This document shows, piece after piece, positions 19,304 through 51,639 of a DNA stretch of 64,000 bases. A model generated the notes under the pieces. It did not search any database. It was not told the origin of the DNA and saw only the letters and a program-made list of their open reading frames with translations. The stretch is taken from the NCBI RefSeq assembly GCF_000203815.1, contig NW_004457735.1, forward strand, positions 372,001 to 436,000. The letters are read 5' to 3'. Source of the stretch: Cavenderia fasciculata. Taxonomy: Eukaryota; Evosea; Eumycetozoa; Acytosteliales; Cavenderiaceae. A program made the position numbers and the translations under genes. Each line of letters starts with the position of its first letter. Position 1 is the stretch's first letter.

Positions 19304-21715
19304 TTATTCACAGATAGGTAACAACAACCCATGACTAAATAATTTATTTTGGTTGGCATGCTTTTTCAAATTAAAATGTTTGAAATTAATAAATTGGTTT
19401 ACTTGATTGTCTTTTTTATACTTTGTAAGCAAGTAGCAAAGTGATAGAGGTTTAATTCTTTCTCTTTTGGTGTCAAAGTCCAATTCAAGTGGCTTCATTT
19501 GATATTGTTCTTTTTCGGGACCATTATAAAACTTGCCATAATGGGTGATGATTCGATCGATAGTATCAGTGATATAGTTTCGTCTAGACTCTCCAAGATA
19601 ATGTGGTGATGGGTACCTAAGAACACTAGAGACAATCAAAGAGTTTGTAGTCCAAGGTTTGAATAGATTCCACATTGTTTCAAATTCTTGGCCGTTTGTA
19701 ATATAGTAAAATGATTGAATCCATCCAGCACTTGTCACATCGTCAACCAATGTCGAAGAGATAGATTGTGAAAAAGATTGTGCAATAGTGTAGGCTATTT
19801 GATGGTGATTATGTTCAAGAGCATAGTGAAGTGGAAAATATCCATAGACCCAACTGTTTTTGACGAATTCTCCAACCAAACATGTGGCCACCTGAACAAA
19901 GCCTTTGGTGCAAACATTGTCGAAAATTTGTCTTCTTGTATCGACTATTGCATCAAAGCAAAAGTGATCCTTTGTAATTGGATGTACAACATACGATAAA
20001 TTGTCACGTAACAATTCAATGTTGGAGTCTGATTGTGCAAGAGATGTTAGTAGGATTAAAGAAGGAATGCTCTGAATAGATTGGTATTTGGTAATCAGTT
20101 GAACAATATCTATTGAAAGAATAGCTGCACACCAATCTAGTCCCATTGTGTAGTTTCCAGGTAGCATCACTTTATGATCCTTTGATAGAAAACACTCGAG
20201 TGCAGTAACAGAGATGAGAGGTACGTTTTGGAATGGTATTCTAATGGTTATACTACTATTGATGAATGATTGTAGTATATATTCTAAAATCTTTTCATTG
20301 GATACACAGAGTGCAGAAACAATGATATCATTTACATTGAGATGACCAATGAGCTTTGATGGGCCACCATTTTGGGCTTCAATTGTAAAAAGATAAACTA
20401 GTGTCTCTAATTGGTTGGCTTTTATGATAGACTCTACCAATGGTTGGTATTCAATGCAAATGTATGGGTTTTCAACCAATTGTTTAACAAGGTCCAATGA
20501 TATGATTGAAATATCTATGTCTCCATCTAGTCTATGGCTGCATCGACCAACTCCTTGTTTTGTTTTTAAAACATTATTGAAAAAGTATGCACATTGCAAA
20601 TGGCCTTGCTTTAACGATGCATTTAAATGAGATGGTTCAAAATCATTGTAACCTAACGAATCACAAAGATATAGTAGGTAATCTAAATTACCTTTTCTTG
20701 CAGCTACTGTTGATACTTTACTGTCATTTGATGGCAACTGATAGTCTATCATTTTCAATGTATCGGTGGTAGCCCATTGTTGAATGGAACGATAGGAGTG
20801 ATGATGGAAATCAACAAACTCTTGTGGGTTTTTGAAACTGTCCTTGATCCATTTTAATACCTCTTGATTGTTTGAGCACTCCAAAGCAGCAATCAACAAT
20901 TCGTGTCTTAGATCCAGACCAGATTCCAATGATCTTGTGACCATATGGAAAATGATTTGATATCTTGATCCCTCTTTGAATTCCTTGACCAATTGTGTAT
21001 TGACTAGGAAATCTTGTTGATCAAACTTAGAGGGAGGTTGTGATTTACTTCGATTATAGTACACTGGTCGGAGGACATCATCACATACTCGATCAAACAT
21101 TTCTACATCACCATGAGTGACGCACAAATAAACCAGTGATTGAATGAATCTGTGATCTAAAATGGTGAGGTCTTCTTGTTTGTTAACCTTATTCACTAGA
21201 TGATAGTTATTGTCAAATAGTATTTGTAACATTTCTTTTGAAAGTTTTTCAAAACCGATTCCCACCAAGGCTACTTTGATCGTTGTATAATCAAACACTC
21301 CTATTCTTTGCAGAATAAATCTAAATGCAACACTATTACTCCTTTTGAATATACTTGTTAATATATCTTTAAATATAGTATTCTATGATTGAGTGTGTTT
21401 GTTAGTAAATTGATTGATAGTAAGCTTTATACAAATATAGCTTACCGAAAAAGTATCTGATAATGATTTCATGTTCTGATATGCTTGATCAAAGTGTTTG
21501 ATGAATAGATCTGTACGATGCAATAGAATGCATTCATTCAATGATATCATCTGATGTGACTTTAGTATCAACGAGTGACGACTAGCAATCATTCTATGTA
21601 TACCCTCTACATGTTTAAATATCTTTGTACGGATATAATAATTGTTTATAATACTTTTAAAGTATCTATCTTTATCACTACTACTATTATTACTATTATT
21701 ATTACTATTATTCAT
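19304..21715 (-). CDS. Ankyrin-like family protein, array copy 1
   Basis: Exon 1 is 21715-21446 and exon 2 is 21382-19304; the donor is GTAAGC and the phase is 0, giving 782 residues. The N-terminal module (YYIRTKIFKHVEGIHRM, LKSHQMISLNECILLHRTDL) is a short helical block found at the start of every copy. Exon 2 carries degenerate ankyrin-like repeats (LIAALECSNNQEVLKWI, KGNLDYLLYLCDSLG, HLNASLKQGHLQCAYF). The C terminus has IDRIITHYGKFYNGPEKEQY and ends in LLLPICE. Function is unknown; ankyrin-type repeats generally bind partner proteins. Its closest relative is the next copy. Confidence 0.8.
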
Positions 21716-21870
21716 TGTTAGACAGATCTAAATGAAAAAAAAACATAAATAAAACTATTTTGAAGAGAGAAAGTTTTGAAAATATCTTTAAAATTATTTT
21801 TTTGTCCAAAAGGGATAAAGATCAAGATCCACACAAGTAACAACTACTGTTTATCCAACTTTATATTTAT

Positions 21871-24342
21871 TTATTCACAGATAGGTAACAACAACCCATG
21901 ACTAAATAATTTATTTTGGTTTGCATGTTTTTTCAAATTAAAATGTTTGAAATTAATAAATTGGTTTACTTGATTGTCTTTTTTATACTTTGTAAGCAAG
22001 TAGCAAAGTGATAGAGGTTTAATTCTTTCTCTTTTGGTTTCACAGTCCAATTCAAGTGGTTTCATTTGATATTGATCTTTTTCGGGACCATTATAAAATT
22101 TGCCATAATGGGTAATGATTCGATCGATAGTATCAGTGATATAGTTTCGTCGAGACTCTCCAAGATAATGTGGTGATGGGTACTTAAGAACTTTAGAGAC
22201 AATCAAAAAGTTTGTTGTCCCAGGTTTGAATAGATTCCACATTGTTTCAAATTCTTGGTCGTCTTTAATAAAGTAAAATGATTGAATCCATTCTGCACTA
22301 TCGTCAATATCTACCTTGGAAGAGATGATTGAGGGTGAAAAAGATTGTGCAATAGTATAGGCTATTTGAAAGTGATTGTGTTCTAGAGCATAGTGAAGTG
22401 GAAAACATCCATAGATCCAATTGTTGTTTTTGATGAATTCTCCAACCAAACATGTGGCCACCTGAACAAAGCCTTTGTTGATAGACTGTTCGAGAATTTG
22501 TCTTCTTGTATCGACTATTGTATCATAGTACAAGTGATCCTTTGCAATTGGATGTACAACATACGATAAATTGTCACGTAACAATTCAATGTTGGAGTCT
22601 GATTGTGCAAGAGATGTTAGTAGGATTAAAGAAGGAATGCTCTGAATCGATTGGTATTTGGTAATCAGTTGAACAATATCCATTGAAAGAATAGCTGCAC
22701 ACCAATCTAGTCCCATTGTGTAGTTTCCAGGTAGCATCACTTTATGATCCTTTGATAGAAAACACTCGAGTGCAGTAACAGAGATGAGAGGTACGTTTTG
22801 GAATGGTATTCTAATGGTTATACTACTATTGATGAATGATTGTAGTATATATTCTAAAATCTTTTCATTGGATACACAGAGTGCAGAAACGATGATATCA
22901 TTTACATTGAGATGACCAATGAGCTTTGATGAACCACCATCTTGGGCTTCAATTGTAAAAAGATAAACTAGTGTCTCTAATTGGTTGGCTTTTATGATAG
23001 ACTCTACCAATGGTTGGTATTCAATACAAATGTATCGGTTTTCGACCAATTTTTTGACAAGGTCCAATGATATGATTGAAATATCTATGTCTCCATCTAG
23101 TCTATGGCTGTATAATTGAAGACCAAATCCTTGTGTTGTGCCTAAAGCACTCATTAAAAAGTATGCACATTGCAAATGGCTTTGCTTTAACGATGCATTT
23201 AAATGAGATGGTTCAAAATCATTGTAACCTAACGAATCATAAAGATATAGTAGGTAACCCAAATTACCATTTCTTGCAGCTACTGTTGATACTTCTTCGC
23301 TGTCATTTGATGGCAACTGATAGTCTATCATTTTCAATGTATCGGTGGTAGCCCATTGTTGAATGGAACGATAGGATTGATGATGGAATTCAACAAAATC
23401 TTGTGGGTCTGTGAAACTGTCCTTGATCCATTCTACTATCTCTTGATCGTTTGAACATTCCAAAGCAGCAATCAACAATTCGTGTCTTAGATCCAGACCA
23501 CATTCCAATGATCTTGTGACCATATGGAAAATGATTTGATACCTTGATGATCCCTCATCGACACAATCAACTCCGTACAATAGTTTCTTGACTAGGCTGG
23601 TAAATATACCTGGTCGATCGTACATCATAGATGGGGGTTGTGCTTTACCCGTTTGACCATTGTACAAAGGCCAGAGGACATCATCACATACTCGATCAAA
23701 CATTTCCACATCACCATGAGTGATACACCAATAAACGAGTGATTGAATGAATCTGTGGTCCAAATATGTGAGATGGTCTTGACTGTTTACCTTATTCACT
23801 ATATGATAGTTATTGTCAAACAGTATTTGTAGCATTTCTTTTGAAGGTGTTTCAAAAACGACTCCTAGCAATGCAGATCTTATCGTTGTATATTCAAACG
23901 AAGGTCCTATTCTATGTATCATAAATTTAAGTGCATCTATATTATTCCTTTTGAATATACTTGCTAATATATCTTTAAATATATCATTCTATAACGATAG
24001 TATTAAATTCTGTTAGTAAATTGATCCGTTAATTCATACCTCTAGAGGAATCCTCTTTTATATTTAGCTTACCGAAAAAGTATCTGATAATGATTTCATT
24101 GTCTGATAAACTTGATCAAAGTGTTTGATGAATAGATCTGTACGATGCAATAGAATGAATTCATTCAATGATATCATCTGATGTGACTTTAGTATCAACG
24201 AGTGACGACTAGCAATCATTCTATGTATACCCTCTACATGTTTAAATATCTTTGTACGGATATAATAATTGTTTATAATACTTTTAAAGTATCTATCTTT
24301 ATCACTACTACTATTATTACTATTATTATTACTATTATTCAT
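21871..24342 (-). CDS. Ankyrin-like family protein, array copy 2
   Basis: Exon 1 is 24342-24073 and exon 2 is 23988-21871, phase 0, 795 residues. It is a close duplicate of the preceding copy; exon 1 differs at only a few codons. About 125 residues of the middle (from GHLNVNDIIVSALCV to DNLSYVVHPI) are identical except one Ile/Met change, and much of the C-terminal stretch through LLLPICE is nearly identical. Other segments are visibly more diverged and contain small insertions (for example GVDCVDEGSSRY). That patchwork points to gene conversion between the two. The start is MNNSNNNSNN, as in copy 1. Confidence 0.8.
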
Positions 24343-24465: not shown

Positions 24466-26840
24466 TTATTTCTTTGTGAATGGGATTATACCATCAGTTT
24501 GAATGTAATATTGATCTATATTGAAATCAGTGAAATCAATGACTGGACAATCTCTGTAATAATTAAATAGATGATGGATATTCAGTGGATCAATTTCCAA
24601 CTCGTTGTTGAGAGCAAGTGGTGTCATATTATATTGATCTTTCTCTGGACCATTATAATATCGAGTATAGTGTTTGATGATTCTATCGATTGTGTTGGTG
24701 ACTCGGTGTCTTTGTGAAAATGCGAAATTGGCACTTGATGAAATAGCCTTTGTTACAAATAAAGAGGGACTAGTCCAAGGTTGTATTACATCCCACATCA
24801 TTTCAAAGTCTTGATCATTATCTATAAAGTAGAATGAGGCCAAGATTTGTGGTTTGAGATCATCCATTTTTTTGAATTGGGTGGCGATCATTTGACCAAT
24901 GAATAGTGCCAGTTGAATATGTTTGTGTTGTAATGCTGTTCCAAAAAGTCTAACTCCACATTCCAAAAACAAGCCTTCAATACTTTCAAAACACTCTACC
25001 ACTTGAACCAAACCTTTCTTGCATAATTCTGGTAATATGTCATATCGCAGTATACGTTTGAATAAACCTAAATCTTGTCGGTGGTGTTGATTGATGACTG
25101 ATATTGTATCACGCAACAGCTTTGTGTTTTTAAAGTCTGGATGTTTTACCGATGAAAGGATTACCCAAGGTTGAATATTTCCACTTTCAATCGATAGACG
25201 ATCGATTAATAATTGAATGGTTTGTGGTGAGGTTGGAATTTGATATCTTTTGGTTCTAACATTGGTTAGAGAATTGAATGGAGATATTTCAATAGTGTGA
25301 CCTTTGTTGAAAAGTAAAAGTAGCGGACCATAACATATATTGTCGTCATTATAATCTACTATAAATGTTTGAGGTGGTCGACCCTCCGAGGAAGAGAAGA
25401 ACTTGTCCAACAACATTTCAGTGATGATTGGGTTATTCACTCCAAGAGACATGGTCACAAACTTTTTGTAAATTGCATGTGTGTCTGTAACGCGTTGCAA
25501 CAAGATAAACTCCAAAGTTTCAGGTTGATTTAATTTAATAGCCGATTCAATCAATCCATCAAAATCAGTAATTTTACATTGACTATCAACCAACCGTTTG
25601 ACAAGATCCAGTGACATGATTAATGGATCTATCATTCTATATAGTAGTGGTACACCACCTTGTTTGGTAACCGTGATTAAAAAGTTGGCACATTCCAAAT
25701 GTCCTCCTAGCAATGAGACCTGGAGTTGTGCACAGCTATCATGTTGAAATAGAGGTTTGAATTCTTTAATGTCATACATGTATGTTAGAAAATCCAAGTT
25801 TCCATGTAGAGATGCTCTATTTGACAATAATATTGGTGAATTAAGTAGTTGTAGTTTGAAATCTATTAATTCAAGTGTACTGGTTGTTGCATATCTTTCA
25901 ATTGATTGAAAAACATTAGATTCTTGACATAGTTTTTTAAAACCTTCTTTTGAATCATCAAAACTATCTCTGATCCATTTTATAATCTCTTGATTATTAT
26001 CACATTCCAATGCACCAATAAATAAGTTTGATCTTAAATCTAAACAACCAAATAGTATCAACTTTGATACCATTTCAAATATTATTTCATATTTTGATTC
26101 ATTACTATTATTTTCATTATTATTTGTTGAATGTTGTTGTTGAGTAGTTAATTTGTTGATTAAATTTCCAAATGATTCCCATTGACTATAAAAACCACAT
26201 TTGTTACTGATATCATCCAGATGATCTTTACAAATTCTATCAAACATCTCCAAATCACCATTCAAGACTACGTGTCTTGTAAGAATACCAACAAATGAAT
26301 TGTGATCATTATTAGTATCTTCATCATCAACATCTTCATTTTCATCTAGTAAATGATAGTTGTGCTGAATTAAAATTCTACACAAACCAATAGGTGGTTT
26401 GATAGAGCTAGCTCCAAGCATCATTGAACCAAGCATGGTCTTATCAAATATTCCAACCCTTTTCAACATATATTCAAATGCAATATATCCATCGTATTGA
26501 ATGATTGTTGTCAATATCTGCTTGATTGTGTGACTCTACATAGATTTGTTAATATACTTTACACTTTCATAAATAACAAATATTAACTTACTTGATCTTT
26601 AGAAACTGATTGATATACACTATCAAAGTGTTTAATGAATAGATCATTTCTATATACTTTGATGCATTCACATAGTGTAACTATCTGATTTGATTTGAGT
26701 GATCGTATGTGATGATTCTTGTAACTATCATTGATACTCTGATGTATGATCTCTACATGATTGAATATCTTTTTTCTGATATAACTACTTTGTAATAAAC
26801 TTTTAAATAGATTATTTATATTTACTTCTTTGTTGTTCAT
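24466..26840 (-). CDS. Ankyrin-like family protein, array copy 3
   Basis: Exon 1 is 26840-26592 and exon 2 is 26535-24466; the donor is GTAAGT, phase 0, 772 residues. I chose the internal start MNNKEVNINNLF because it aligns with the starts of sister copies, although the frame is open for 20 codons upstream. N module: YIRKKIFNHVEIIHQ, then KSNQIVTLCECIKVYRNDLFI. The repeat region contains ALECDNNQEIIKWIRDSF and LHGNLDFLTYMYD. The C terminus has HYTRYYNGPEKDQYNM, CPVIDFTDFNIDQYYIQ and GIIPFTKK. It belongs to a subfamily with copies 4, 5 and the one at 47709-50074. Confidence 0.8.
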
Positions 26841-26937: not shown

Positions 26938-29284
26938 TTATTTGTTGAATGGGATGACACCTAGTTCATTGTTTTGAATGTAATATTTGTCTACATTGAA
27001 ATCAGAGAAGTCAATGACTGGACAATCTCTGTAATTGGTGTATAGATGATGGATATTAAATGGATCAAATGATTGATCTCTGTTGGTAATTCTAATTGGT
27101 GTCATTTTGAATTGATCTTTCTCTGGACTATTATAATATCGAGTATAATGTTTGATGAATCTATCTATTGTTTTGGTCTTTGAGGATCTTTTTGAAAATT
27201 TAAAGCGTGAGTATGTGATAGCTCTTGAGACATATGAAGAGTTACTCGTGAGAGGTTGTAATACATCCCAAATCATTTCAAAGTCTTGATCATCATCGAT
27301 AAAGTAAAAATAATTCAAAATCAATTCTAGTCGGTTGGTATCCATTTCTTTGAAATGAGTGGTGATTGCTTGTCCCAAGAATAGTGCCATTTGAGTTTGT
27401 TTGTATTCCATTGCCGTTCTAAAAAGTGAGTCTCCAAATTTCCAAGCCCAGTCTCCAAAACATTCAACCACTTTAACCAACCCCATTCTACATGCTTCAT
27501 TCAATACATCGTGTTGTAATTCTTGCATATCTTCTTCGGGGTATTGGTTGATGAGTGATAGTGTATCTTTCAACAACTTGTAGTCACCTTGGTCATTAAA
27601 ATCTGGATGATTGACAGATACAAGTATCACCCATGGTGGTACTCTTTCAATCGATAGATGTTCAAGACATAATTGAACCACTTTTTGTGATACTATTGAT
27701 GGATTAGAAGTATAATATTCCAATGGATTAAATTCGATAGAATGACCTTTGTTGAAAAGTGATAATAGTGGAGCATAACATATTTTTTTGTCAATGTATT
27801 CAACTGTAAATGTTTTGGGTGGTCGATCCTCGGAAGAGAAGAACCTGTCCAACAACATTTCAGTGATGACTGGGTCATCCAATGCAAGCGACATGATAAC
27901 AAACTTTTCGTCGCTGTCAAAAAACTCCATATTTTCATCTTTCAACAGTGACAAGATAAACTCTAAAGTTTCAGGTTGATTTGATTTGATCGCTGATTCA
28001 ATCAATCCACTAAAACTCATCATCTGGCATTGAATTTCGACCAATCGTTTGACAAGATCCAATGACATGATTGATGGATCAATAGACCAACATTGTAATT
28101 TTGTATAACCTTCTTTGACTGCTATTGTCATTAAAAAGTTGGCGCATTCCAAATGTGGACCTGACAGTGAATCATGAAGTTGTGTTTTTTCAAATAGATA
28201 TTGGTATTGTTTCATGTCATACATGTATGATAGAAAATCCAAGTTTCCAAATTGAGCTGCTCTCGTTGACAATCGATTCGATGATGATACTAGTTGGTTG
28301 AATTCTATTAACTTAAGTGTATTGGTTGTTGCATATTTTTCAATTGGAAATAAAAGATAGTGTTGAAATAGTTGGTTAAAATCTTCTACTGTCCCATTAC
28401 CTTGTTCTTTTGAATCAAAACTATCTCTGATCCATTTAATAATCTCTTGATTATTATCACATTCCAATGCATCAATAAATAATAGTGATCTTAGATCTAC
28501 ACCAAAACTTAATAGTTTCTTGACCATATAAAATATTACATAATACTTTGATTGATTATTATTATCACCATTATTATTATTATTGTTGTTGTTATTTGTT
28601 GTATGTTGTTGATTATTTAATTTGTTGATTAAACCTTTGAATGATCGCTTGTCGACATAAAAACTAAATTTGTCACTGTTATGATCAAAATAATCATTAA
28701 AAATTCTATCAAACATCTCCAATTCACCGTTAAAGACTGCCAGTCTTGTCAGAACGTCAACAAATATCGCATGATCAGTTTCATTATCATTCTTTTCAGG
28801 TAAATGATAATTGTGCTGAATGAGTAGTCTAAATACATTGATAGGTGGTTTGATAAAACCATCTCTAAGGACTGTCATTTTGATTCTTCCAAACCTTTGC
28901 AACAAATAATCTAATTCAACATGTCCATCATATTGAAATATAGTATTTAATATCTGTTTGAATGTTTTATTCTACATAGATAATGTTATTAGGAATCACT
29001 TTATTTCTTTATAATATTAAACATACATTAAAACTAAACTCCTTTTCATTAGAGTATGACAACATTGATTGATATACACTATCAAAGTGTTTGATGAATA
29101 GATCGCTTCTATTTACTTTGATACATTCACATAATGAAACTATCTGATTTGATTTTAGTACTAATAAGTCACTACTAATGATACGCTGATGAATAATCTC
29201 TACATGATTGAATATCTTTGTTCTAATATAACTACTATGTAATAAACTTTTAAATAGATTATTTATATCTGCTTTGTTGTTCAT
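26938..29284 (-). CDS. Ankyrin-like family protein, array copy 4
   Basis: Exon 1 is 29284-29027 and exon 2 is 28971-26938; the donor is GTATGT, phase 0, 763 residues. N module: MNNKADINNLFKSLLHSSYI, then IFNHVEIIHQRI. The repeat region has ALECDNNQEIIKWIRDSFD and FGNLDFLSYMYDMKQY, with an Asn run near residue 190. The C terminus has YNSPEKDQFKM, where Ser replaces the usual Gly of the YNGPE motif, and VIDFSDFNVDKYYIQ. The frame is intact. Confidence 0.8.
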
Positions 29285-29420: not shown

Positions 29421-31767
29421 TTAATTGTTGAATGGGATGATACCTAGTTCAATATTTTGAATGTAATATTGATCTATATTGAAATCAGAGAAGTCAATGA
29501 CTGGACAATCTCTGTAATTGGTGTATAGATGATTGATATTAAATGGATCTAATGGTAACCTCAAATTGCTGTAAATTTTAATTGGTATCATTTCAAATTC
29601 ATCTTTCTCTGGACCATTATAATATCGAGTATAGTGTTTGATGATTCTATCGATTGTGTTGGTGATTCGGTGTCTTTGTGAGTTTTTATACGCTTTATAA
29701 TTATATGTGGCGATAGAGACATGTGAAGCGTTACTTGTTATCGGTTTTAAGAGATTCCAAAACATTTCAAAGTCTTGTTCACCATGGATAAAGTGCAAAG
29801 AAGGCAATAGATCCATTAATGTCATATCATCGCAATGAGTAGCGATTGATTGCCCAATATAATATGCCAATTGAATATGTTTGTACTCCAATGCAGTTCT
29901 AAAGAGTGACACACCAAATTGCCAAACCCAGTCTCCAAGACACTCGACCACTTTAATCAACCCAATTCTGCATGTCAGGTTCATTATTTGTTGGTACATA
30001 ATCAAATCTTCTTGAGTGTGTGGGTGGATGATTGAAATTGTATGTTTCAACAACTTGTAGTCACTTTGGTCATTAAAATCTGGATGATTGACAGATGCAA
30101 GTATCACCCATGGTGGTACTCTTTCAAGCGATAGACGATCGATTAATAATTGAACAACTTTTGGTAAAAATAAAAAACAGAGTATCAATGCTGTTTGTTT
30201 GGGTTGTTTAATTTCAATAGAATGACCTTTGTTGAAAAGTGATAAAAGTGGTGCATAACATATTTTGTTGTCATTGAATTGAATTTTAAATGTTTGAGGT
30301 TGTTGATCCTCGGAAGAGAAGAACTTGTCCAACAGCATTTCAGTGATTGTTTGATTATCTACTTTCAGAGACACCAATACAAATCTTGTACCAAGTTCCT
30401 TCAACTCTTGACTAGAGACCTCTTTTAGCAATGACAAGATAAACTCCAAAGTTTCAGGTTGATTTGATTTAATAGCTGATTCAATCAATCCAGTAAAATC
30501 CATCATTTGACATTGACTATCAACCAATCTTTTAACAAGATCCAAAGACATGATTGATGGATGAATAGTCCAAAATATATGGGTATAAGAATGTTCACTT
30601 TCTTTAACTTCTTTAGCTTTAATTTTCATTAAAAAATTAGCACATTCTAAATGTCCGTCAGATAATGACGCCGCCAGTTGAGCTCTATCAAATAGATACT
30701 TGTACTCTTTCATGTCATACATGTGCGATAGAAAGTCCAAGTTTCCAAATTTAGCTGCTACAGTTGACATGACTGGTGGTGATTGTAGTTTGAATTCTAT
30801 TAATTCAAGTGTATGGGTTGTTGCATACATTTCAATTGAACTAATAACTCTTTTGTGTTGTTGACATAGTTTAATAAAATCATCTTTTGAATCATAACTA
30901 TATCTGATCCATTTTATAATCTCTTGATTATTCTTATCACATTCCATTGCAATAATAAATAATTCTGATCTTAAATCTACTAAACTATATCCTATTAATT
31001 TCTTGACCATATAGAATAGTATATCATACTTTGATTGATTATTATTGAATAAATCTTTGCATGATCCCCATGAGTGCCAGTCATCATCCATTGTTCGCTC
31101 AAAATTTATATTGTTTTTGTTGTTGGTATGATCTAAATAATCATGACAAATTCTATCAAACAACTCCAAATCACCATTCATTACTACTTGTTTTGTAAGA
31201 ATACCAACAAAGGCATAGTGATCATTATCATCATTTTCATCTAAATGATAGTTTTGTTGAATTAAAAGTCTACACACACCAATAGATATATAGTTCATAA
31301 ATGTAGCTCCGAGAAATCTATGATTGAGAAGGACGGTCTTTTCAATTCTTTCAAACCTTTTCATCATATATTCTAATTCAATATGTCCATCGTATTGAAA
31401 TATAGCTTTCAATATCTGTTGGAATTGTTGACTCTATACATAATTGTTGTTAGCTTTTAAACCCTCATGATTCATGTTGCTGTTAACATACATTTAAACT
31501 AAATTCCTTTTCATGAGATGACGACAACATTGATTGATATACACTATCAAAGTGTTTGATGAATAGATCACTTCTATGTACTTTGATACATTCACATAGT
31601 GTCATTATCTGATTTGATTTGAGTGCTAGTTTATCGTAACTGTAAATGATTCTCTGATGTATAATCTCTACATGATTGAATATCTTTTTTCTAATATAAC
31701 TATTATGTAATAAACTTTTAAATAGATTATTTATATCTAGATTTATATCTACTACTTTGGTGTTCAT
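29421..31767 (-). CDS. Ankyrin-like family protein, array copy 5
   Basis: Exon 1 is 31767-31492 and exon 2 is 31433-29421; the donor is GTATGT, phase 0, 762 residues. It begins MNTKVVDINLDINNLF and has the usual YIRKKIFNHVEIIHQRI module. Repeats include AMECDKNNQEIIKWIRYSYD and FGNLDFLSHMYDMKEY. It ends with HYTRYYNGPEKDEFEM, VIDFSDFNIDQYYIQ and GIIPFNN. The frame is intact and it is closest to copies 4 and 47709-50074. Confidence 0.8.
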
Positions 31768-31871: not shown

Positions 31872-31976
31872 TTATTTGCTGTTGAATGGGATGACACCAT
31901 CATTCTTATCATTTCCAATGAAATCTTTTTCTTGGTGAGTTTGAATGTAATATTGATCTACATTGAAATCAGTGAA
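31872..31976 (-). pseudogene. C-terminal remnant of an ankyrin-like family gene
   Basis: Only about 35 codons remain: FTDFNVDQYYIQTHQ, an insertion, then GVIPFN and a stop. Homology to sister copies stops abruptly at about 31976, where transposase-like sequence on the other strand begins. The rest of this copy is gone. Confidence 0.7.
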
Positions 31977-31994
31977 ACAGGCTATAATATTAAC

Positions 31995-32830: not shown

Positions 32831-33015
32831 TTTATTTAATATTGTGCCTTGTGTTGCTCTCTTCTCTTTGGTTATAATCATTATTAATAAACTATTCAAT
32901 AATGATCATAGCACAAACGAGTGAGAGATCGGCAGATCGTCAGATCAACCCATTTGTAGTGTTTTATTTATTTTTTATTCTCAATACTCAATCTGAATAT
33001 TTATTCTTTTAAATC

Positions 33016-38372: not shown

Positions 38373-40091
38373 TTATTTATTCTTTTTAATTGTATTATCA
38401 AATGGGATTAATCCAATTGATTGATTGTTGATGTAAAATTGATTGTTGATGTAAAATTGATTGATATCAAAATCATTAAAATTGATTATTTGATTGAATT
38501 GTGGATCATGTCTATATTTAGAGATGATATAGTAGGTGACAAATGTATTGTAGCTGGACAATCGCAAAGGTTCCATTTGATATTGATCTCTTTCAGGACC
38601 ATTATAGAATCTTGAATAGTTTAGTATGATTCTATCAATTACACGAGATACATGACAACGATAATATCCTGTATCAAATGGTGGCTGTGTAAATAGTTGG
38701 GATACCAACTTTGAATTGGTCGTAGAGAATGATTTAAAATCATTCCAAAAAGATTCGAATGTTTGGTCGTCGGTAATATAGTAAAATGATGATAATATCT
38801 TGGCTTGATCTCTTTCCCATATCTCTTTATCAGATGGTTGACACATAAAGTCAAAGTCGTATGGGTCTGGTTCCACTTTTTCCTTTTCGTGAAACTGAAC
38901 AAGAGACATGCATTCATTGGTCAAATACTTTGCAACTTTGAATTGTTTGTATTTAATTGCTGTTGTGAATGAATCTATAAAACTGTCAATATTCGATACC
39001 AAACATGCCACAGTTTTAACCAATCCATTCTTACTTGCTTTAATTAATGTTTTTTTAATCTTTTCATAAAATTGAAGAGATTTTAATGTTGGTAATACAT
39101 CTTTTAAAAGATGAATATCATCATCACAATATCCAAATCGTTTGAGTATTACCCAAGGATGAATAGTGTTGATTGGTTGATACTTTATAATCAATTGAAG
39201 GATTTCAAGTGATGGTTCTTTTGGTACTTGTTTGATATGGTATGATATAGGGGATGGAGATATGCTAATCTCTAGTGAACAATGACCAAGTGAATATAAA
39301 TATTCAAGTGGTTGATATTCCATATCACAAATATTGTCAGTTGTCACTTGAATGGATGATATAGTTGGTTCTTCCTCATCTTCGTTGTAGTATGTATTCA
39401 ATAGATACTCTATCATAGTAGTATCCTCAATACATAATGCACCAACAATTAAACTGCCATAGTCTGTGAACCCTTGAGCCACAAGAGGAGAGAGTATGTG
39501 TTGTAAAATATCCAATTGATTAGTCTTGATGGTTGTAAGAGCCAGTTTGACTGAAAGGCGTATATATGGATTGAGGGCCAATTGCTCCACAAGATCCAAT
39601 GATATGATTGATGGGTTGACCTTTAGGATGATAAGAGGGCGAACAATTATTCCTCTTGTTTCCTCTAGATACAACCCAGCATTTTGTATTTCTTTTAATA
39701 ATATTTTAGAGTATTCCAAATGACCCTTGTCCAAAGCAATATGAAGTTGGTCTCCAAAATAATGGAAACCATTTTCAACAAAAGGGATTATATAATTGAG
39801 GAAATCTATGTTTCCATGTTCTGGTGAATCGATATTGCTAATTCTATCTTTTGAGTGTTGAAATTCAATCAACTCCAAAGTTTCAGTTGATGCATATCTT
39901 TGGATTTGCTCAAAATATCTACCACTGAAACCAAGAAACTCTTGTATTGTACCAAAACTATCTTTAATCCATTTTATAATCTCTTGATTATTATCACATT
40001 CCAATGCATCCATAAATAAATTACCTCTTAAATCTAATCCATGTCCTATTAATTTGTTGACCATATAATATATTATTTCATATTTTGATTG

Positions 40092-40148
<57 letters not shown>

Positions 40149-40937
40149 TTGATTATTATGATTATTATTATTGCCTTGTTGTTGATTATTTAATTTGTTG
40201 ATTAGATTTTTAAATGATAATTTGACCTGCAGATCATATCTATATCGAATACTTTTTTGAGCTGGTTCTAGAATATCTTTACAAATTTGATCAAACATTT
40301 CCAAATCACCTGTTGTTAATGGACAATAGAGAAGCTCCATAGCAAACCCAGTTGATTGTTTAAATAGTGTGATGTGGTTCATGAGAATAGAAAGACTATT
40401 TTTTGTTGGTTGCCATATTTGAGAATACTGCCAAATGAAATCAGAAAATCCTCCCAATCTATCTACCATCATATCAAATGCTGTTTTGTTTTCATATTTC
40501 AACGCTGTGAATAATAATTCATTGAATTTACTAAACTGTAAGATTGAATTAATAACTGCATATTCTATATTTATCTCTCTCTCTGTCTCTCTCTTCTTTT
40601 TTTTATTGCAACATACAAAATAATCAGATTTTACATCTACACCAATCTTTTCATGAAAAGATTCAATTGATTGATATATTTGATCAAAATGTTTGATGAA
40701 TAGATCAGTACGATGTACAATGATGCATTCTTTTAAACTAATGATCTCATGTGACTTTAATCTGTAGATCATCGGTTGACCAACATGTTGGTGTAACTTG
40801 TGATGAATGATCCCTACATGATTGAATATCTTTGTTCTTAGATACTTGTTGTTGAGTATACTTTTAAAGTACTCACTCTTTGTATTATCTGTGTTACTAT
40901 CTAATATATTATTATTATTATTACTATCTCTATTCAT
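38373..40937 (-). CDS. Ankyrin-like family protein with a stop-free intron
   Basis: The frame is open without interruption for 854 codons. Alignment with sister copies shows that 40634-40536 is the usual intron: donor GTAAAA, acceptor TTACAG, 99 bp, exactly 33 codons, no stop. Spliced, exon 1 (40937-40635) and exon 2 (40535-38373) give 821 residues; retained, 854. N module: YLRTKIFNHVGIIHHKL and SLKECIIVHRTDLFIKHFD. A long Asn run follows residue 240. The C terminus has NYSRFYNGPERDQYQM, with a short duplicated FYINNQ before SIGLIPF. It belongs to the subfamily with the copies at 41026, 44480 and 50224. Confidence 0.8.
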
Positions 40938-41025: not shown

Positions 41026-42760
41026 TTATTTATTAAAGATAAATGGAATTAATCCAATTGATTGATTGTTGATGTAAAATTGATTGATATCAAAATCATT
41101 AAAATTGATGATTTGATTGAATTGTGGATCATGTCTGTATTTAGAGATGATGTGGTAGGTGACAAATGCATTTCGATTGTAACTAGACAATTGTAATGGT
41201 TGCATTTGATATTGGTCTCTTTCAGGACCATTATAGAATCTTGAATAGTTTAGTATGATCCGATCAATTAAATTTGATACATAGCGACGATAATATCCTG
41301 TATCAAATGGTGACTCTGCTAATAGTTCAGATACCATTGATGAGTTGGTTGTAGAGTATGATTTACAATCATTCCAAAATGATTTAAATAGTTGGTCGTC
41401 TTCAATATAGTAAAATGATGATAATATCTTGATATGTTCTCTTTCCCAAATCTTTTTATCAGATGGACCTCTGCGGACCGAATAGTCGTAAAATAGGCTG
41501 GGTCTAACCCGAGGAGAAATGTTTTCCTCTTCCTCTTCATTGTTTAAATGAACAAGTGATATGCATTCATTGATCAAATACTCGGCAACTTTGATTTGAT
41601 TGTGTATGATTGCCGTCTTGAATGAATCTGCAAAACGATTAATATCCATGACCAAACATTCAACAGTTTTAATCAATCCATTCTTACTTGCTTTGATTAA
41701 TGTATCTTGAATCTTGGATGATCGTTGGGTAGAGGGTACCAATCTTAGAGTTGATATTAAAAGATCGATACCTTCGTCACAATATCCAAATCGAGCAAGT
41801 ATTACCCAAGGATGAATAGGTTGTTGAGTGTTGATTGGTTGATACTTTATAATCAATTCAAGTATTTCAAGTGATGGTTCTTTTGTTTGTTTGATTTGGT
41901 GCCAATTTGGAGATGGTGGTAATTTAATGTCGAGTGAATGACCAAGTGAATATAAATATTCAAGTGGTTGATGCATCATATCACCAATTATGTTTGTTTT
42001 CACTTGGAATGATGTTGTAGTCGTTCTGTCATCATCATCATCGTTGTTGTAGTATGTATTCAATAAATACTCTATTATAGTTGTATCATCAATACATAAT
42101 GCACCAACGATGAGACTATTAGTGTTTAAATATTGTTGGTTTGTATATGGACTGAGTAAGTGTTGTAAACTATCCAATTGTTTGGCCTTGATGGCTGTAA
42201 GAGCAATATCCTCGACTAAAACTTTAATATATGGGTGTTGAGACAATCTTTGGACGAGATCCAATGACATGATCGATTCATGTACACTATTGACATAAAT
42301 TTGTAAACGACCATATAATTCTTCATTTCTTTTCATGCCTTGGTCGTGTATTACTTGTAATACAATAAGTGAATACTCCAAATGACCATTATCCAAAGCT
42401 GTTTGGAGAGTATTGAAATCATATAAACTATTTGCCATAATGGGGAGTGTATAATTGAGGAAATCTATGTTTCCATAATCTGATGAAGTACAATTTTCAT
42501 AGGATACACGTACATCTACTGGATTTAATTGAATCAACTTTAAAGTTTCAGTTGATGCATATTGTTTGATATGATAAATAAAATTGATTTGATTATAGAA
42601 ACCAATAAACTCTGGCATTGAACCAAAACTATCTTTTATCCATTTAATAATCTCTTGATTATTATCACATTTCAATGCATCCATAAATAAATTACCTCTT
42701 AAATCCATATCATATTCCTTTAATTTGTTGACCATATAATATATTATTTCATATTTTGAT

Positions 42761-42822
<62 letters not shown>

Positions 42823-43595
42823 GTCTTGTTGTTGTTGTTGTGTTGTGGTTGTTGATTTAATTTGTTGATTAGATATTTAAATGCAAATTTAAGGGGTTTA
42901 TAAGAACCGTATAAATCATTTGTACCGTATGTAATATTCTTGATTCTGTCAGATTGAGTTGGTTCAAGAATATCTTTACATATTTGATCAAACATTTCCA
43001 AATCACCTGTTGATATTGGATGACAGAGAAGTAACCCAACATATTGCACTGGTTGCTGCTGATAGTGAGTGATGTGATTCATGAGAATAGAAAGACTATT
43101 TTTTGTTGGTCTCCATATATTGGAGTATCGATTAAGGAAATTATTGGGTAATTTACCTCCCAATCTATCTACCATCATATCAAATGCTGTTTTGTTTTCA
43201 TATTTCAACGCTGTGTATAATAAATCATCAAATATACTAAACTATAAGGCGATTATTTATTGTTAAATATTTAAGTTAACTTTATAATAGTATCAATACT
43301 ATGTTTTGCTTTTCTTTTCTAGATTACATACATCTCTGATAACTGATTTAAAAACTTGATCAAAATGTTTGATGAATAGATCAGTACGATGTACAATGAT
43401 ACATTCTTTCAAACTAATGATCTCGTGTGACTTGAATCTGTAGATCATCGGTTGACCTTGACCACCATCACCATACAACTTGTAGTGAATGATCCCTACA
43501 TCTTTGAATATCTTTGTTCTTAGATACTTGCTATTGAGTATACTTTTAAAGTATTCTCTCTTTGTATCTGTATTACTACTATCTTCTCTATTCAT
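41026..43595 (-). pseudogene. Ankyrin-like family gene with frameshift in an (AAT)n run
   Basis: Exon 1 is 43595-43332 and exon 2 runs 43241-41026; the donor is GTATGT, phase 0. The exon 2 frame is open from SIFDDLLYTALKYENKT to NKLNQQPQHNNNN, then slips so that the (AAT) tract is read as poly-Ile. The correct frame resumes with ESKYEIIYYMVNKL and continues to the normal end (FYNGPERDQYQM, SIGLIPFIFNK). The net change equals one missing base within about 42770-42860. This could be real slippage or an error in a low-complexity tract. If corrected, the protein would be about 825 residues. Confidence 0.65.
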
Positions 43596-43734: not shown

Positions 43735-44388
43735 TTAATTGAATGGAATTAATCCAATTGATTGATTTTTGTTGTAAAATTGATTGATATCAAAATCATT
43801 AAAATTGATTATTTGATTGAATTGTGGATCATGTCTATATTTAGATATGATATAATAAGTGACAAATGTATTGTAGCTGGACAATCGCAAAGGTTCCATT
43901 TGATATTGATCTCTTTCAGGACCATTATATGTTAGATCTAGATTGTTTAAAATCAATGATATCTCATTGAACTCAATATACTCAATCCTGGTTAGGACAA
44001 GTCAAAAATGTAAACTATTTTGGATAAAATACTAAAGACTAACCATCGTCAGTTAGTCGTGGATCAACAATTATAAAAAGGATTAGAATAATCCAATAAA
44101 GAGACATTCTATATTATATATTCTATATTCATTATTCATTATTACTATAATATTATTCATTCTATTTAATCATCTTTTATTATTATAATTAAATAATCAT
44201 TTACAATCTAATCTAAAGACATTATCACTATCTATATATTCATATATCTATATATTATTATATACCTCTCAAACTAATTATATATTTACCAAGTATCTAT
44301 ATAGTTATTACATTAGGTACTTGCTATTGAGTATAAACTTAAAGTATTCACTTCTTCTTTTATCTGTATCTTTATTACTATTATTCAT
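43735..44388 (-). pseudogene. Gutted ankyrin-like copy: 5' and 3' scraps around foreign DNA
   Basis: At 44388-44313 are the first codons of a family exon 1 (MNNSNKDTDKRRSEYFKFIL, then NSKYL). At 43929-43735 is a family C terminus (YNGPERDQYQMEPLRL to SIGLIPFN). Both match sister genes until sharp breaks. The roughly 380 bp between them is unrelated to the family. It holds a 64-bp signal-peptide-like exon (44107-44044). Confidence 0.65.
44044..44107 (-). other. Stray signal-peptide-like exon
   Basis: ATG at 44107 opens MSLYWIILILFIIVDPRLTD and ends at a GTTAGT donor. A CCAG acceptor lies about 85 bp further on. It resembles the first exon of a secreted dictyostelid protein, but no matching body follows, so it is probably an inserted fragment. 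Confidence 0.4.
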
Positions 44389-44479: not shown

Positions 44480-46941
44480 TTATAATGGGATAATACCAAT
44501 TAAAAGATTATTATTTTTAATATAAAATTGATTGATATCAAAATCATTAAAATTGATTATTTGATTGAATTGTGGATCATGTCTATATTTAGAGATGATA
44601 TAGTAGGTGTTGAATGGATGTGATGGATTGGGCAATTGTAATGGTTGCATTTGATATTGATCTCTTTCAGGACCATTATAAAATCTTGAATAGTTTAGTA
44701 TGATCCGATCAATTGTATTGGATATTTGACGACGATAATATCTTGTATCAAATGGCGACTCTTCTAATAATTTAGAGACCACCGATGAGTTGGTTGTAGA
44801 GAATGATTTAAAATCATTCCAAAATGATTCAAATGTTTCGTCGTCTCCAATATAGTAAAATGATGGTAATATCCTGGCATGAATAGTTTCCCATATCTCT
44901 TTATTGGATTGACCTGAACCACCCAAAAATTCAGAAAATAGGTTGTTGTAAACCTCTTCTTCTGCTTCTGGTGTAATGATTTCATCCTCTTCTTCTTCTT
45001 CTTCAATAAAATGAACAAGAGAAATGCATTCATTGGTTAAATACTTTGCAACTTTAATTTGTTTGTATTTGATTGCTGATGAGAATGAATCCTCAAAACT
45101 ATGAACATTCGATACCAAACATTCGACAGTTTTAACCAATCCATTCTTACTTGCTTTAATTAATGTGTCTCGTTTTATGTCATAGAATGCAATATCTGAT
45201 ACCAATGACAAAGCATCTTTTAAAAGATGAATATCATCATCACAATATCCAAATCTTGAGAGTATATCACTCGGATGAATAGTGGCGATTGGTTGATACT
45301 TTATAATCAATTGAAGTATTTCAAGTGATGGTACTTTTTTTTCTTGTTTTAATATTGCCAACACACTTTGAGATTGTTCCATTCTAATGTCTAGTGAATG
45401 ACCAAGTGAATATAAATATTCAAGTGGTTGAGGCATCATATCACAAATATTGTCAGTTGTCACTTGGAATGATTTGGATCTTGTAGTTGGTTCTGCATCA
45501 TCATCGTTGTTGTAATATCTATTCAATAGATACTCTATATTAGTTGTATCATCAATACACAATGCTCCAAAAATCAATCTATTCGTGTCCAAATATCCTT
45601 CTTGAGCCCTGTAAAGATTGAGTATGTGTTGTAAAATATCAAATTGTTTGGCCTTGATAGCTATCAGAGCCAATTCGGTGACTGAAACTTGTAGATATTG
45701 ATTCGCAAACAATCTAGTGACAAGATTGAATGTCATAATAGATGGGTTGACGCTTTCGACTTTGATACGACCATAATAATGAATTCCGATTACTATACGT
45801 TCAATGGTTTGTATTAAAATATTAAAATATTCCAAATGGCCCTTGTCCAAAGCTGTTTGGACCATTATAGAGAAAGAATATGATTCTTGCTCTAAAATAG
45901 GGAGCACAAAGTTGAGGAAATCAATGTTTCCATCAGCTGAAACTATTTTCTCTGTTAGGTTTGAATTCAATCAACTTTAAAGTTTCAGTTGATGCATATT
46001 TTTGAATTTGTTTTAAATGTTGATATCTACCATACAAACCAATAAACCCTTCTTTTTTTTCATAACTATCTTTTATCCATTTAATAATCTCTTGATTATT
46101 ATCACATTTCAATGCATCTACAAATAAATTACCTCTTATATCCATACCATATTCCTTTAATTTGTTGACCATATAATATATTATTTCATATTTTGATTCA
46201 TTATTATTATTATTATTAGTTGTATGTTGTTGGTGTTGATTTAATTTGTTGATTACATGTTTAAATGAAAATGGGAGATGGTCACAATAACCATATGAAG
46301 GAAAGATCAGAGTTCCATTGGGAACAGGATCAAGAACGAGTTGGCATATATGATCAAACATTTCCAAATCACCTGTTGTTACAGGTAACCAAAGAACAAG
46401 ATGAGCATAACCAGTTGGTTGAAAGTATGTGATGTGATTCATGAGAATAGAAAGACTACTTTTGGTTGGTCTCCATTGATTTCTTAAAATAGAATGGGGC
46501 AATTCTCCGGCTCTCTCTATCAACATATCAAATGCTGTTTTGTTTTCATACTTTAACGCTGTGATTAGTAAACTATTGAAGTTATCTTGCTATATTGATT
46601 AATTGAATATTAGCTAATTCACTTCAGTGTACGATATTGATGGGTGACTCTCTTTCTTTTAAAGTACATACATCTCTGTTAACTGATTTAAAAACTTGAT
46701 CAAAATGTTTGATGAATAGATCAGTACGATTTACAATGATACATTCTTTCAAACTAATGATCTCATGTGACTTTAATCTATAGATAATCGGTTGACCTTG
46801 ACGACAATACAACTTGTGATGAATGATCCCTACATCTTTGAATATCTTTGTTCTCAGGTACTTGCTATTGAGTATACTCTTAAAGTATTCACTTCTTCTT
46901 TGATCTGTATTACTACTATTATTATTACTATCTCTATTCAT
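44480..46941 (-). pseudogene. Ankyrin-like family gene with one frameshift
   Basis: Exon 1 is 46941-46672 and exon 2 is 46589-44480; the donor is GTATGT, phase 0. Reading from DNFNSLLITALKYENKTAFD the frame is open to LKLIEFKPNRENSFS and then meets a stop. A second frame takes over in the same 38-bp zone (45970-45933) with TEKIVSADGNIDFLNF, matching sister genes (YGNIDFLNY). It then runs intact to FYNGPERDQYQM and a C terminus ending in IGIIPL. The shift equals one surplus base or two lost. Corrected length would be about 792 residues. Acidic Glu runs (EEEEEDE) lie before the C-terminal third. Confidence 0.65.
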
Positions 46942-47046: not shown

Positions 47047-47612
47047 TTATTCAAAGATAAATGGAATTAATCCAATTGATTGATTTTTGTTGTAAAATTG
47101 ATTGATATCAAAATCATTAAAATTGATTATTTGATTGAATTGTGGATCATGTCTATATTTAGAGATGATATAATAGGTGTTGAATGGATCTCGACTGGTG
47201 TGGATGTTGTTTGGATTGTACAATCGCAATGGTTGCATTTGATATTGATCTCTTTCAGGACCATTATAAAATCTTGAATAGTTTTGGATGACTCTATCAA
47301 TAGTATTGGATATTTGACTACGATTAGATGTTGGATAGAATGGTGGCTGTGTTAATAATTAAAAAGATTTAATTTAAGATCAGTACGATGTACAATGATA
47401 AATTCTTCTAAACTAATGATCTCATGTGACTTTAATCTGTAGATCATCGGTTGACCTTGACCACCATCACATGAGTACAACATGTCATGAATAATCTCAA
47501 CATCTTTAAATATCTTTGTTCTTGGATACTTATTGTTTAGTATACTTTTAAAGAATTCAGTTCTTCTTTTATCACTATGATTATTGATCTTATCACTATT
47601 ATTACTATACAT
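47047..47612 (-). pseudogene. Ankyrin-like family gene with large internal deletion
   Basis: 47612-47375 is a nearly whole family exon 1 (SDKRRTEFFKSILNNKY, IFKDVEIIHDML, SLEEFIIVHRTDL). It breaks off and is followed almost at once by the C-terminal piece 47350-47047 (SQISNTIDRVIQNYSRF, NGPERDQYQMQPL, ending SIGLIPFIF). The intron and about 600 codons are missing. Confidence 0.75.
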
Positions 47613-47708
47613 TATTTAGAAATAAAAAGTGAATACGGTTTTTTTTTTTCATCTTGTGCCTCTTTGCTACACAAAAATTATTTAATTTATTATTATTATT
47701 ATTTTTAT

Positions 47709-50074
47709 TTAATTGTTTTTTGTGAATGGGAAGATACCTTCTTTATGATTATCTTCAAGATATGAGTCTACATTGAAATCAGTGAAATCAATGACTGGAC
47801 AATCTCTGTAATTGTTATAGAGATGGTTGAAATGAAGACATCCACCATGCTCATTGGTAATTTTGATTGGTGTCATTTTGAATTGACCTTTCTCTGCTGC
47901 TCCATTATAATATCGAGTATAATGTTTGATGACTCTATCGATTGTGTTGGTGACTCGGTGTCGTTGTGAATATACAAAATTGTTCACTGACATGATGGCA
48001 TGAATCACATGAGAAGAGCTGGTTGTAAAAGGTTTTAATGCATCCCAAATCATTTCAAAGTCTTGATCATTATCTATATCGAGTAAAGAGTATAAGATAC
48101 CTTCGTAATCATCAAGTTGTTGGAAGCGAGAACTGATTAATTGACTAATGTATAGTGCCATTTGAATTTGATTGTACTCCAATGCCGTTCTAAAAAGTGA
48201 GTCTCCAAATTCCCAAATCCAGTCTCCAAAACATTCAATAACTTTAATCAAACCATTTGAATATAAATATTGAAGTTTTTTATATTGGTACACCTCTTCT
48301 TCAGGGTATTGATTGATGAGTGATATTGTATCTTTCAACAACTTGTAGTCATTAAAATCTGGATGATGGATTGATGCAAGTATCACCCATGGTGGTACAC
48401 TTTCAATCGATAGACGATCGATTAATAATTGAACAGCTTGTGGTGTGACTTTTGATAGTCTTTTTTTCCTTGAAAGAGGAAGTATTTCTATAGAATGACC
48501 TTTGTTGAAAAGTGATAATAGTGGACCATAACATAGATCATTCCCTTTGGAATTTAAATGAAAGGTTTGAGGAGGTTGATCAGAGAATAACTTGTCCAAC
48601 AATATTTCAGTGATTTTTGGGTTATCTATTTTAAGAGACAACAAGACAAGTCTTGTATAAATAGAAAAATCTTCTCTCATCTGAGAGTCTACATTTTCCA
48701 ACTGTGAAAAGATAAACTCTAAAGTTTCAGGTTGATTTGATTCGATAGCTGATTCAATCAATCCATCAAAATCCAACATTTGACATTGACTATCAACCAA
48801 CCTTTTAACAAGATCCAATGACATGATTGATGGATGAATGTCTCCAAATTCTACTTCTGCACCTTCTTTGACTGCACATGTCACTAAAAAATTAGCACAT
48901 TCCAAGTGTCCTTCAGTCAATGATGCCTCAAGTTGTCCATTTCCAAATAGATAATTGTACTCTTTCATGTCATACATGTATGTTAGAAAGTCCAAGTTTC
49001 CAAATTGAGCTGCGTCTATTGACAATAGTCGTGGTGATTCAAGTTTGAATTCTATTAATTCAAGTGTATTGGTTGTTGCATATCTTTCAATTAGAGTAAG
49101 AACTTGAGATTGTTGAAATAGTTTCACAAAACTTTCTTTTTCATCAAAACTATCTTTTATCCATTTTATAATCTCTTGATTATTACCACCTTCCAAAGCA
49201 TCCACAAATAATGTTGATCTTAAATCTATACCGTATCCTATTAATTTGTTGACCATATAGAATATTTTAATATACTTTGATTGAATATTATTATTATCTT
49301 TGTTGTTGGTTGTGTGTAGTTGTTGTTGTTGATTATTTAATTTGTTGATTAAATCTTTGAATGATCCCCAATGGTGATAAAAAATAAGATTTTGGTTGAT
49401 GATGGTATGATCAAAATAATCGTTACAAATTCTATCAAACATCTCCAAATCACCATTCATCATAACATGTTTTGTAAGATTACCAACAAAGGTAAAGACA
49501 TCTTTATCATTCATATCGAGTTTTAAATGATAGTTTTGTTGAATTAAAAGCCGACACAAACCAATCGGTGGGATGACGAAACCAACTCGAAGCATCATCG
49601 ATCTGAGTTTGGTCATCTCTATTCCTCCAAACCTTTTCAACAAATATTCTAATTCAACATGTCCATCGTATTCAAATATAGTTTTCAATATCTTTTCAAA
49701 TACTTGACTCTACATATATAGACTTGTTGTTAGAATTGATTTATATTATGTATGATCATCATCATCATAAAATTACATACATTAAAACTAAACTCCTTTT
49801 CATTAGAGTATGACAACATTGATTGATATACACTATCAAAGTGTTTAATGAATAGATCACTTCTATTTACTTTGATACATTCACATAGTGTCATTATCTG
49901 ATTTGATTTGAGTGCTAGTTTGTAATGATTCTTATCATCGTTATTAATGATTCTGTGATGAATGATCTCTACATGATTGAATATCTTTGTTCTTAGATAC
50001 TTGTTGTTGAGTATACCTTTAAAGTACTCACTTCTTCTTTTATCACTATCACTATTATTACTATTACTATACAT
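47709..50074 (-). CDS. Ankyrin-like family protein, array copy near 3' border
   Basis: Exon 1 is 50074-49781 and exon 2 is 49709-47709; the donor is GTATGT, phase 0, 764 residues. It begins MYSNSNNSDSDKRRSEYFKG and has YLRTKIFNHVEIIHHRI. The repeat region has ALEGGNNQEIIKWIKDSFD and FGNLDFLTYMYDMKEY. The C terminus shows an inserted residue in the signature motif (YYNGAAEKGQFKM) and VIDFTDFNVDSY. The start of exon 1 resembles the frameshifted subfamily while exon 2 belongs with copies 3-5, so this copy may be a recombinant. Confidence 0.8.
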
Positions 50075-50223
50075 TATTTGTATAAATAAATAAAAGTGAA
50101 ATGAAGTGCACTTGTTTTTTTTTCATCATTATTTTGTCTCTTTGAAAAAAAAAAATATCTTCTTAAAACAAAAATTATTTAATTTATTAATTTATAAATC
50201 TATTTGTAAAACTAACTCATAGT

Positions 50224-51028
50224 TTAGTGGAGAGGAATCAAACCAAACCTAATATTATTAAAATAAAATTGATTGATATCAAAATCATTAAAATTGATTA
50301 TTTGATTGAATTGTGGATCATGTTTATATTTAGAGATGATATAGTAGGTGTTGAATGGATGTAGATAGTAGTCGGTGGTGTTGTCTGGATTGGACAATTG
50401 TAATGGTTGCATTTGATATTGATCTCTTTCAGGACCATCATAAAATCTTGAGTAGTTTTTAAGGGTCCAGTCAATCACATTGGATATTTGACAACGATTA
50501 AATGTTGAGTAGAATGGTGGCAGTGTTAATAATTGAGAGACCATCTTGGAGTTGGTTGTGAGTGCTTTAAAATCATTCCAATATGATTCAAATCGAGTTT
50601 CATCACTACTGACATAATACAATGCATTTAAAAGTTTAATTTTTTTGTCATCTTGAGCACCTTGAAGAATATTAGTATTCTTTGAAAAGCATTCTCTTGC
50701 CAAATAATCTGTCACTTTGAATTGATTGTTTTTGGCAGCTTCAGTGAATGAATCTACAAAACCGCCAAAATCAAATGATGGCAAACATTGCACAACCTTG
50801 ACCAATCCATTCTTACTTGCTGCCATTAATGTGTCTTTAATCTTGGTGATAGGGTATGATGGAAGATTTCTAATTGATCCCAACAAGTTATCGTTTAAAA
50901 GATGAATTTCATCTTCACAATATCCAAATCTTGAGAGTATGATCAAAGGATGAATAGGTTGTTGGGTGTTGAATAGTTGGTACTTGATAATCATTTGAAT
51001 GATTTCAAGTGATGGTACTTTTTTTTAC
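50224..51028 (-). pseudogene. 3' third of an ankyrin-like family gene
   Basis: The frame runs from about PSLEIIQMIIKYQLFNTQQP to the normal end (FYDGPERDQYQM, FGLIPLH), with Asp replacing Asn in the signature motif. Family homology ends at about 51028, where sequence coding on the plus strand begins. Exon 1 and most of exon 2 are absent. Confidence 0.7.
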
Positions 51029-51029
51029 A

Positions 51030-51594: not shown

Positions 51595-51639
<45 letters not shown>

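Follow-up and report, generated by a model that had tools for sequence, protein, structure and literature searches.

A tandem array of ankyrin-like genes in Cavenderia fasciculata, worn by gene turnover and apparently split by a recent inversion

A 64,000-nucleotide stretch of Cavenderia fasciculata DNA (contig NW_004457735.1, C3:372001-436000; hereafter the window, whose positions are used unless a contig or locus is named) contains a long array of related two-exon genes, which was analysed against the whole genome of 30,995,898 bases (31.0 Mb) in 21 contigs. We probably have here a lineage-expanded, ankyrin-like tandem array that has been eroded and then cut by an inversion, and which likely serves as a reservoir of diversifying proteins for recognition or adaptor roles. 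The products are predicted to consist of a short N module, encoded by exon 1, followed by a long helical solenoid, encoded by exon 2. The split of the array in this assembly appears to be due to a single inversion that spans about 81 kb (C3:342177-423011) and whose breaks were staggered at one end. The value of the locus lies in the base-level record that it keeps of a tandem family being built, eroded and finally physically split.

Extent of the array

As a preliminary description of this DNA had proposed, the array occupies one strand: tblastn at E≤1e-4 placed the family segments between 19304 and 51024 of the minus strand; the window gave no family match outside 19000-51500, and its plus strand had none at E<1e-6. 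The A+T content of the window is 62-72% per 2 kb. Fifteen pieces were counted, seven of them intact two-exon genes (A1, A2, B1, B2, B3, B4, D1) and eight broken, and in the direction of transcription they follow each other as E, B4, F, D3, G, D2, D1, C2, C1, H, B3, B2, B1, A2 and A1. A search of the window with exon 1 gave 12 copies or fragments of this exon, in addition to the short exon 1 of C2. Three more units of the array are now outside the window, at C3:334.5-342.0 kb.

The inversion and the original array

The segment 50019-51011 (minus strand) is an inverted copy of C3:341184-342176 (L009:7185-8177), located about 81 kb away, and the two do not differ at any of their 993 positions. 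This block contains the C-terminal half of a copy named c3, a spacer and 56 bases from the start of B4 exon 1. Within the window, the block continues into the intact copy B4 (47709..50074, minus; exon 1 50074-49781, exon 2 49709-47709, 666 aa), and the copy at C3:342 kb leads back into c3; because the block joins the two, c3 and B4 were presumably once adjacent. A neighbouring gene is cut at the other break, with its 3′ part at 51024..52183 (plus) and its 5′ part at C3:342177-342460 (minus). The right inversion junction itself (51012..51023, no strand) consists of about 12 bases without a match on either side. An uncut paralogue of the neighbour gene, L030, has both parts side by side; after the halves had been joined by script they proved collinear with L030 (80.9% over 1396 columns, 23 gap openings) and the reading frame was preserved across the join. 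Taken together, the 993-bp inverted pair, in which once-single DNA now stands at both ends, and the reciprocal gene halves at C3:342177 and window 51024 with their frame kept, argue for an inversion with staggered breaks.

One could suppose that the chromosome is in truth uninverted and that the assembly is at fault, since an assembler might be misled by inverted copies that match perfectly over 993 bp. We regard this as highly improbable, since the error would need to create both the duplicate and the frame-preserving cut of the neighbour gene, at two sites 81 kb apart that are both gap-free in the assembly. In addition, inverted end duplications are what staggered-break inversions have been described as leaving: according to PMC3355041, the Drosophila mojavensis inversions 2h and 2q show staggered breaks, inverted end duplications and a partial gene copy, and some of their breaks fall between duplicated genes. 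The present case shares with them the inverted end duplication, the partial gene copy at a break and the break between duplicated genes; it differs in its setting (about 81 kb in an amoeba), in being duplicated at one break only and in the complete identity of the duplicates.

Returning to a true inversion, piece E (50224..51011, minus), a 5′-truncated copy that equals the C-terminal half of c3, appears to be the scar left by the breakpoint, neither an independent copy nor a dying gene. Truncations had been taken as a sign of turnover; in one case, that of E, the truncation would be owed to the inversion. A truncated copy in an array may, then, be a breakpoint scar instead of a dying gene. The three units at the far side form a plus-strand cluster: c1 is in pieces, c3 has a frameshift and a TAG codon, and c2 has both exons open, with putative splicing and an exon-2 frame of 736 aa. 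Before the inversion the array would have comprised 17 head-to-tail units, eight with open frames, in the order c1, c2, c3, B4, F, D3, G, D2, D1, C2, C1, H, B3, B2, B1, A2, A1, the larger part of which is in the window.

The absence of differences between the 993-bp copies limits their divergence to less than about 0.3% (rule of three), as compared with a synonymous divergence of 0.147 between A1 and A2. On this ground the inversion appears to be very recent, unless conversion between the copies has kept them alike. As for its course, staggered breaks would have fallen between the middle of c3 and the start of B4, with the second break inside the neighbour gene, and may have been sealed by end joining. 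The inversion offers a simple strain marker, which would show it to be fixed, polymorphic or an assembly error.

Intact and broken copies

All window copies are read on the minus strand. Besides B4, the intact ones are A1 (19304..21715; exon 1 21715-21446, exon 2 21382-19304, 692 aa), A2 (21871..24342; exon 1 24342-24073, exon 2 23988-21871, 705 aa), B1 (24466..26840; exon 1 26840-26592, exon 2 26535-24466, 689 aa), B2 (26938..29284; exon 1 29284-29027, exon 2 28971-26938, 677 aa), B3 (29421..31767; exon 1 31767-31492, exon 2 31433-29421, 670 aa) and D1 (38373..40937; exon 1 40937-40635, exon 2 40535-38373). The 99-nt intron of D1 (40634-40536) is free of stops and the read-through frame has 855 aa, so an unspliced transcript would still yield a protein. 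The claim of one intron position in phase 0 was borne out by every exon-1 end that was read (11/11): in ten copies (A1, A2, B1-B4, C1, D1-D3) exon 1, when cut at a GT donor by script, has a length divisible by three, and that of C2, read by eye, likewise ends in phase 0.

The lesions recognised earlier were found again, each in a definite copy. C1 (33976..36469; exon 1 36469-36173, exon 2 36048-33976) has an in-frame TGA at 35884-35886. C2 (36589..38233; exon 1 38233-38075, exon 2 37986-36589) has a shortened exon 1, from which the beginning of the N module is missing, and an exon 2 that has lost its final third at the 3′ end. Frameshifts are located in an AAC/AAT tract (42744-42876) of D2 (41026..43595; exon 1 43595-43332, exon 2 43241-41026) and at 45933-45970 of D3 (44480..46941; exon 1 46941-46672, exon 2 46589-44480); single-base frameshifts in array copies could be sequencing errors. 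Internal deletions have reduced piece F (47047..47612) to exon 1 (47612-47358) fused to the final ~100 codons, and piece G (43735..44388), with its middle deleted, to the start of exon 1 (44388-44314) and a C-terminal end (43968-43735). Piece H (31872..31977) is a 3′ tail with the final ~35 codons of a copy assigned to the B type by eye, and adjoins a C-terminal fragment of a hAT transposase (PF05699, E 2.2e-24) that lies between H and C1 on the plus strand (31994..32485). The YNGPE(K/R)DQ signature, which had been taken as universal, is exact in eight of the 13 pieces reaching that site and deviates in A1, B2, B3, B4 and E.

Relationships and exchange among copies

Exon 2 was used for a tree of 27 rows, from which the N part and C part of c1, the N parts of c3 and of the C14 copy, C18_1654 and the second C21 copy were left out; in this tree, as in the dN/dS and dependent runs below, the D1 row starts four codons past the true start of the exon. 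Bootstrap values of 99-100 uphold the four subfamilies proposed before (A 100; B with the copy on contig C20 100; C 100; D with E and c2 99), with the correction that B also has a dispersed member, the C20 copy; the array on contig C18 forms a clade of its own (100). B4 is distant from B1-B3 in the array and belongs to their clade in the tree, within which B1 and the dispersed C20 copy form a pair. These placements show that the array is a mixture of old lineages and not the outcome of a single recent burst.

The near-identical pairs of the preliminary description need a correction: the closest pair, A1/A2, has 90.4% identity over aligned exon-2 codons and is not near-identical throughout. The similarity of these two is uneven. 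When they were aligned with their flanks, an identical run of 209 bases was seen, while in 2000 shuffles the longest run had a mean of 48 and a maximum of 90. Also, the synonymous divergence (dS) is lower in exon 1 than in exon 2 for eight of ten within-subfamily window pairs, which could result from exchange or from constraint on the DNA. Both the identical run and the low exon-1 dS fit exchange between copies, short of proof. With eight of 15 pieces broken, an A1/A2 mosaic and one very recent rearrangement, the rapid turnover that had been proposed holds.

Tandem copies, divergent subfamilies, broken copies and dispersed members characterise families that evolve by birth and death. The array has clade-distinct tandem copies, pseudogenes and dispersed members as well; it differs in that part of the apparent decay at one of its ends is due to an inversion breakpoint. 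The family forms a head-to-tail array and has lost units through nonsense mutation, frameshift and deletion, and exchange between copies may have given rise to mosaics. The locus is thus of a known kind, and a good case of array break-up.

Selection

Pairwise ratios of replacement to synonymous change (dN/dS, NG86) range from 0.35 to 0.70 in 23 pairs, those of copies on C18, C20 and C5 included. Between A1 and A2 the replacement and silent codons are unevenly distributed, with 19 to 2 in codons 1-50, 11 to 0 in codons 451-500 and, in a conserved patch, 1 to 2 in codons 351-450. Codon site models, run in our own implementation, favoured positively selected sites. Twice the log-likelihood difference (2dlnL) between M1a and M2a was 21.9 for the B set, 43.7 for C18 and 42.0 for C5, and 60 null simulations per set never exceeded 6.5; between M8a and M8 it was 24.4 for B with C20, 43.6 for C18, 42.3 for C5 and 22.2 for D, the last from a degenerate fit. 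The site models of the D set (omega 145) were set aside for this degeneracy. M8 remained ahead of M8a in all 12 runs with three trees and two masks for the sister arrays, at 25.0-43.6 for C18 and 17.6-43.0 for C5. For the window copies B1-B4 the value was 16.3-17.5 under the usual mask vs. 3.2-4.9 under the strict one. The diversifying pressure suspected earlier is therefore strongly indicated in the sister arrays on C18 and C5, under every tree and mask, and is suggestive in the window, where the strict mask removes most of the B-set signal.

Such values might also come from relaxed constraint, the array being what is left of an older ankyrin family, decaying almost neutrally, with weak selection alone behind its turnover. 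The eight broken pieces, dN/dS values between constraint and neutrality and the fragile signal of positive selection in the window itself are in keeping with it. Still, we think a relic rather unlikely: seven units retain open exon-2 frames of 666-720 aa and plausible splice sites, M1a places roughly half of the codons under strong constraint (p0 0.47-0.56, omega 0.00-0.13), and C18 and C5 keep a 2dlnL of at least 17.6 under all trees and masks.

Sites with a posterior above 0.7 are neither enriched in predicted helices nor outside them, the counts being 11/15, 27/36 and 16/30 against backgrounds of 0.72, 0.71 and 0.68. A stronger constraint on the N module than on the solenoid, considered as a candidate, was unsupported by omega. 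PMC8535579 reports 1,077 C. fasciculata genes in 78 lineage-specific expansion families, and positive-selection signals in 55% of stage-biased expansion genes across the species of that study; the word "ankyrin" is absent from its main text. Searches of open-access papers gave no description of the array family.

Protein architecture and ankyrin relationship

The solenoids are probably eroded ankyrin repeats. They resemble the ankyrin superfamily (PF12796 Ank_2, Ank_3, Ank_4) in their predicted helical solenoid, in weak profile matches and in an N module common to true Ank genes. They differ from it in that the window copies scanned stay under the curated Pfam cut-off, the best Ank scores being 26.0 bits for copy C1, 22.5 for A2 and 21 for A1 vs. 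27.3, and in that a C-terminal stretch surrounding YNGPE(K/R)DQ is conserved among the window copies. In four of the seven exon-2 proteins scanned with Pfam no Ank match was obtained at E≤1. Scans with B4 exon 2 showed no viral or prokaryote relatives, a single-protein query of this kind finding close kin only. Closer kin of exon 2 were located at C3:278 kb, C3:335-342 kb, C18:792-809 kb, C20:371 kb, C21:930-935 kb and C14:1677 kb; remoter relatives lie on contigs C5, C1 and C18, among others.

The N module was not recognised by Pfam in the proteins scanned. It is shared with accepted Ank proteins (L045:2030-4597, Ank_2 61.9 bits; L032:8899-9999, 33.2 bits) and also occurs in frames on contig C4 upstream of Ank_2 hits; the common module does not by itself make the window solenoids ankyrins. 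The exon-1 query had 96 genome matches at E≤0.1, those of the window included. An iterated profile of the module collected 91 open reading frames (ORFs) at E<1e-3, two of them with part of a Ras domain; this is a biased count, as the iteration was run on ORFs of the window and of loci mostly chosen for matching. A module without Pfam recognition would be common to a very large genome family, whose members range from canonical ankyrin proteins through Ras fusions to forms that may be prenylated.

Part of a Ras-like domain precedes the N module in the frames 9378-10559 (minus) and L032:4785-6152 (minus), and in the latter a sub-threshold Ank_2 match comes after the module. A C-terminal CxLM (CILM, CTLM or CNLM), which we take to be a possible prenylation box, ends six of seven related long frames on contigs C5, C1, C16 and C7; its bearers are L016 (three genes), L018, L023 and L024, the exception is L017, and the window copies do not have it. 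G-alpha chains also matched the N module by profile (E 0.18-2.7), which was judged to be due to chance. A fold of the module predicted from ten window rows reached a pLDDT of 55 and was used for no claim.

Possible functions

The array most likely serves as a reservoir of recognition or adaptor proteins that are diversifying and would act inside the cell by binding other proteins. The solenoids may be fast-changing protein-binding surfaces, and the N module a common docking or assembly part. The proteins look intracellular, as the frames read showed, by eye and with no predictor applied, neither a signal peptide nor a membrane span.

A more specific version is a locus of defence or self-recognition, whose solenoids would recognise variable molecules (self, pathogen or effector) in the manner of allorecognition clusters. 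Positive selection on some solenoid codons, clearest in the sister arrays, and the high turnover speak for it, and ComC, TIG and EGF genes adjoin the array. However, neighbours from large families are often unrelated, and the dictyostelid ComC/TIG genes carry different domains: no TIG, ComC or other recognition-receptor domain was detected in the array proteins scanned with Pfam. The intracellular look of the proteins speaks against it too, and we hold this role possible but doubtful.

In an adaptor family, the N module would recruit a ubiquitin ligase or another core complex and the ankyrin-like solenoid would pick the clients. The short module followed by a long repeat is the architecture expected here, the module is found at many places in the genome, and the structural matches include FEM1-type ankyrin ligase subunits. 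Repeat folds, however, match many proteins by shape alone, the N-module model was too poor for a structure search, and no F-box or other ligase domain appeared in the Pfam results for 18 proteins scanned. Hence we consider the ligase-type adaptor unlikely.

Bolder still, and quite improbable in our judgement, is the idea that the array serves recognition inside the cell, with selection for diversity, and that the young inversion is still polymorphic, separates two strain haplotypes and blocks exchange between them. If true, staggered inversion of a tandem recognition array would be a way to found isolated sub-arrays.

Neighbouring sequences

A ComC supersandwich domain is encoded beside the array at 11055-12035 (minus), and another, together with EGF, at 17828-19093 (plus), in a gene convergent with A1; a sub-threshold TIG match lies at 222-872 (minus). 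The sequence adjoining the hAT fragment (32734-32950) is a repeat of ~50-215 bp with up to 98% identity to pieces on contigs C3, C8, C10, C12, C14, C18 and C20. Between the hAT fragment and C1, the segment 32990-33960 resembles, by eye, a broken cysteine-rich gene on the plus strand. Fragments of the family of the neighbour gene cut by the inversion are also present inside the C18 sister array (C18:804884-805015, L012:3210-3641).
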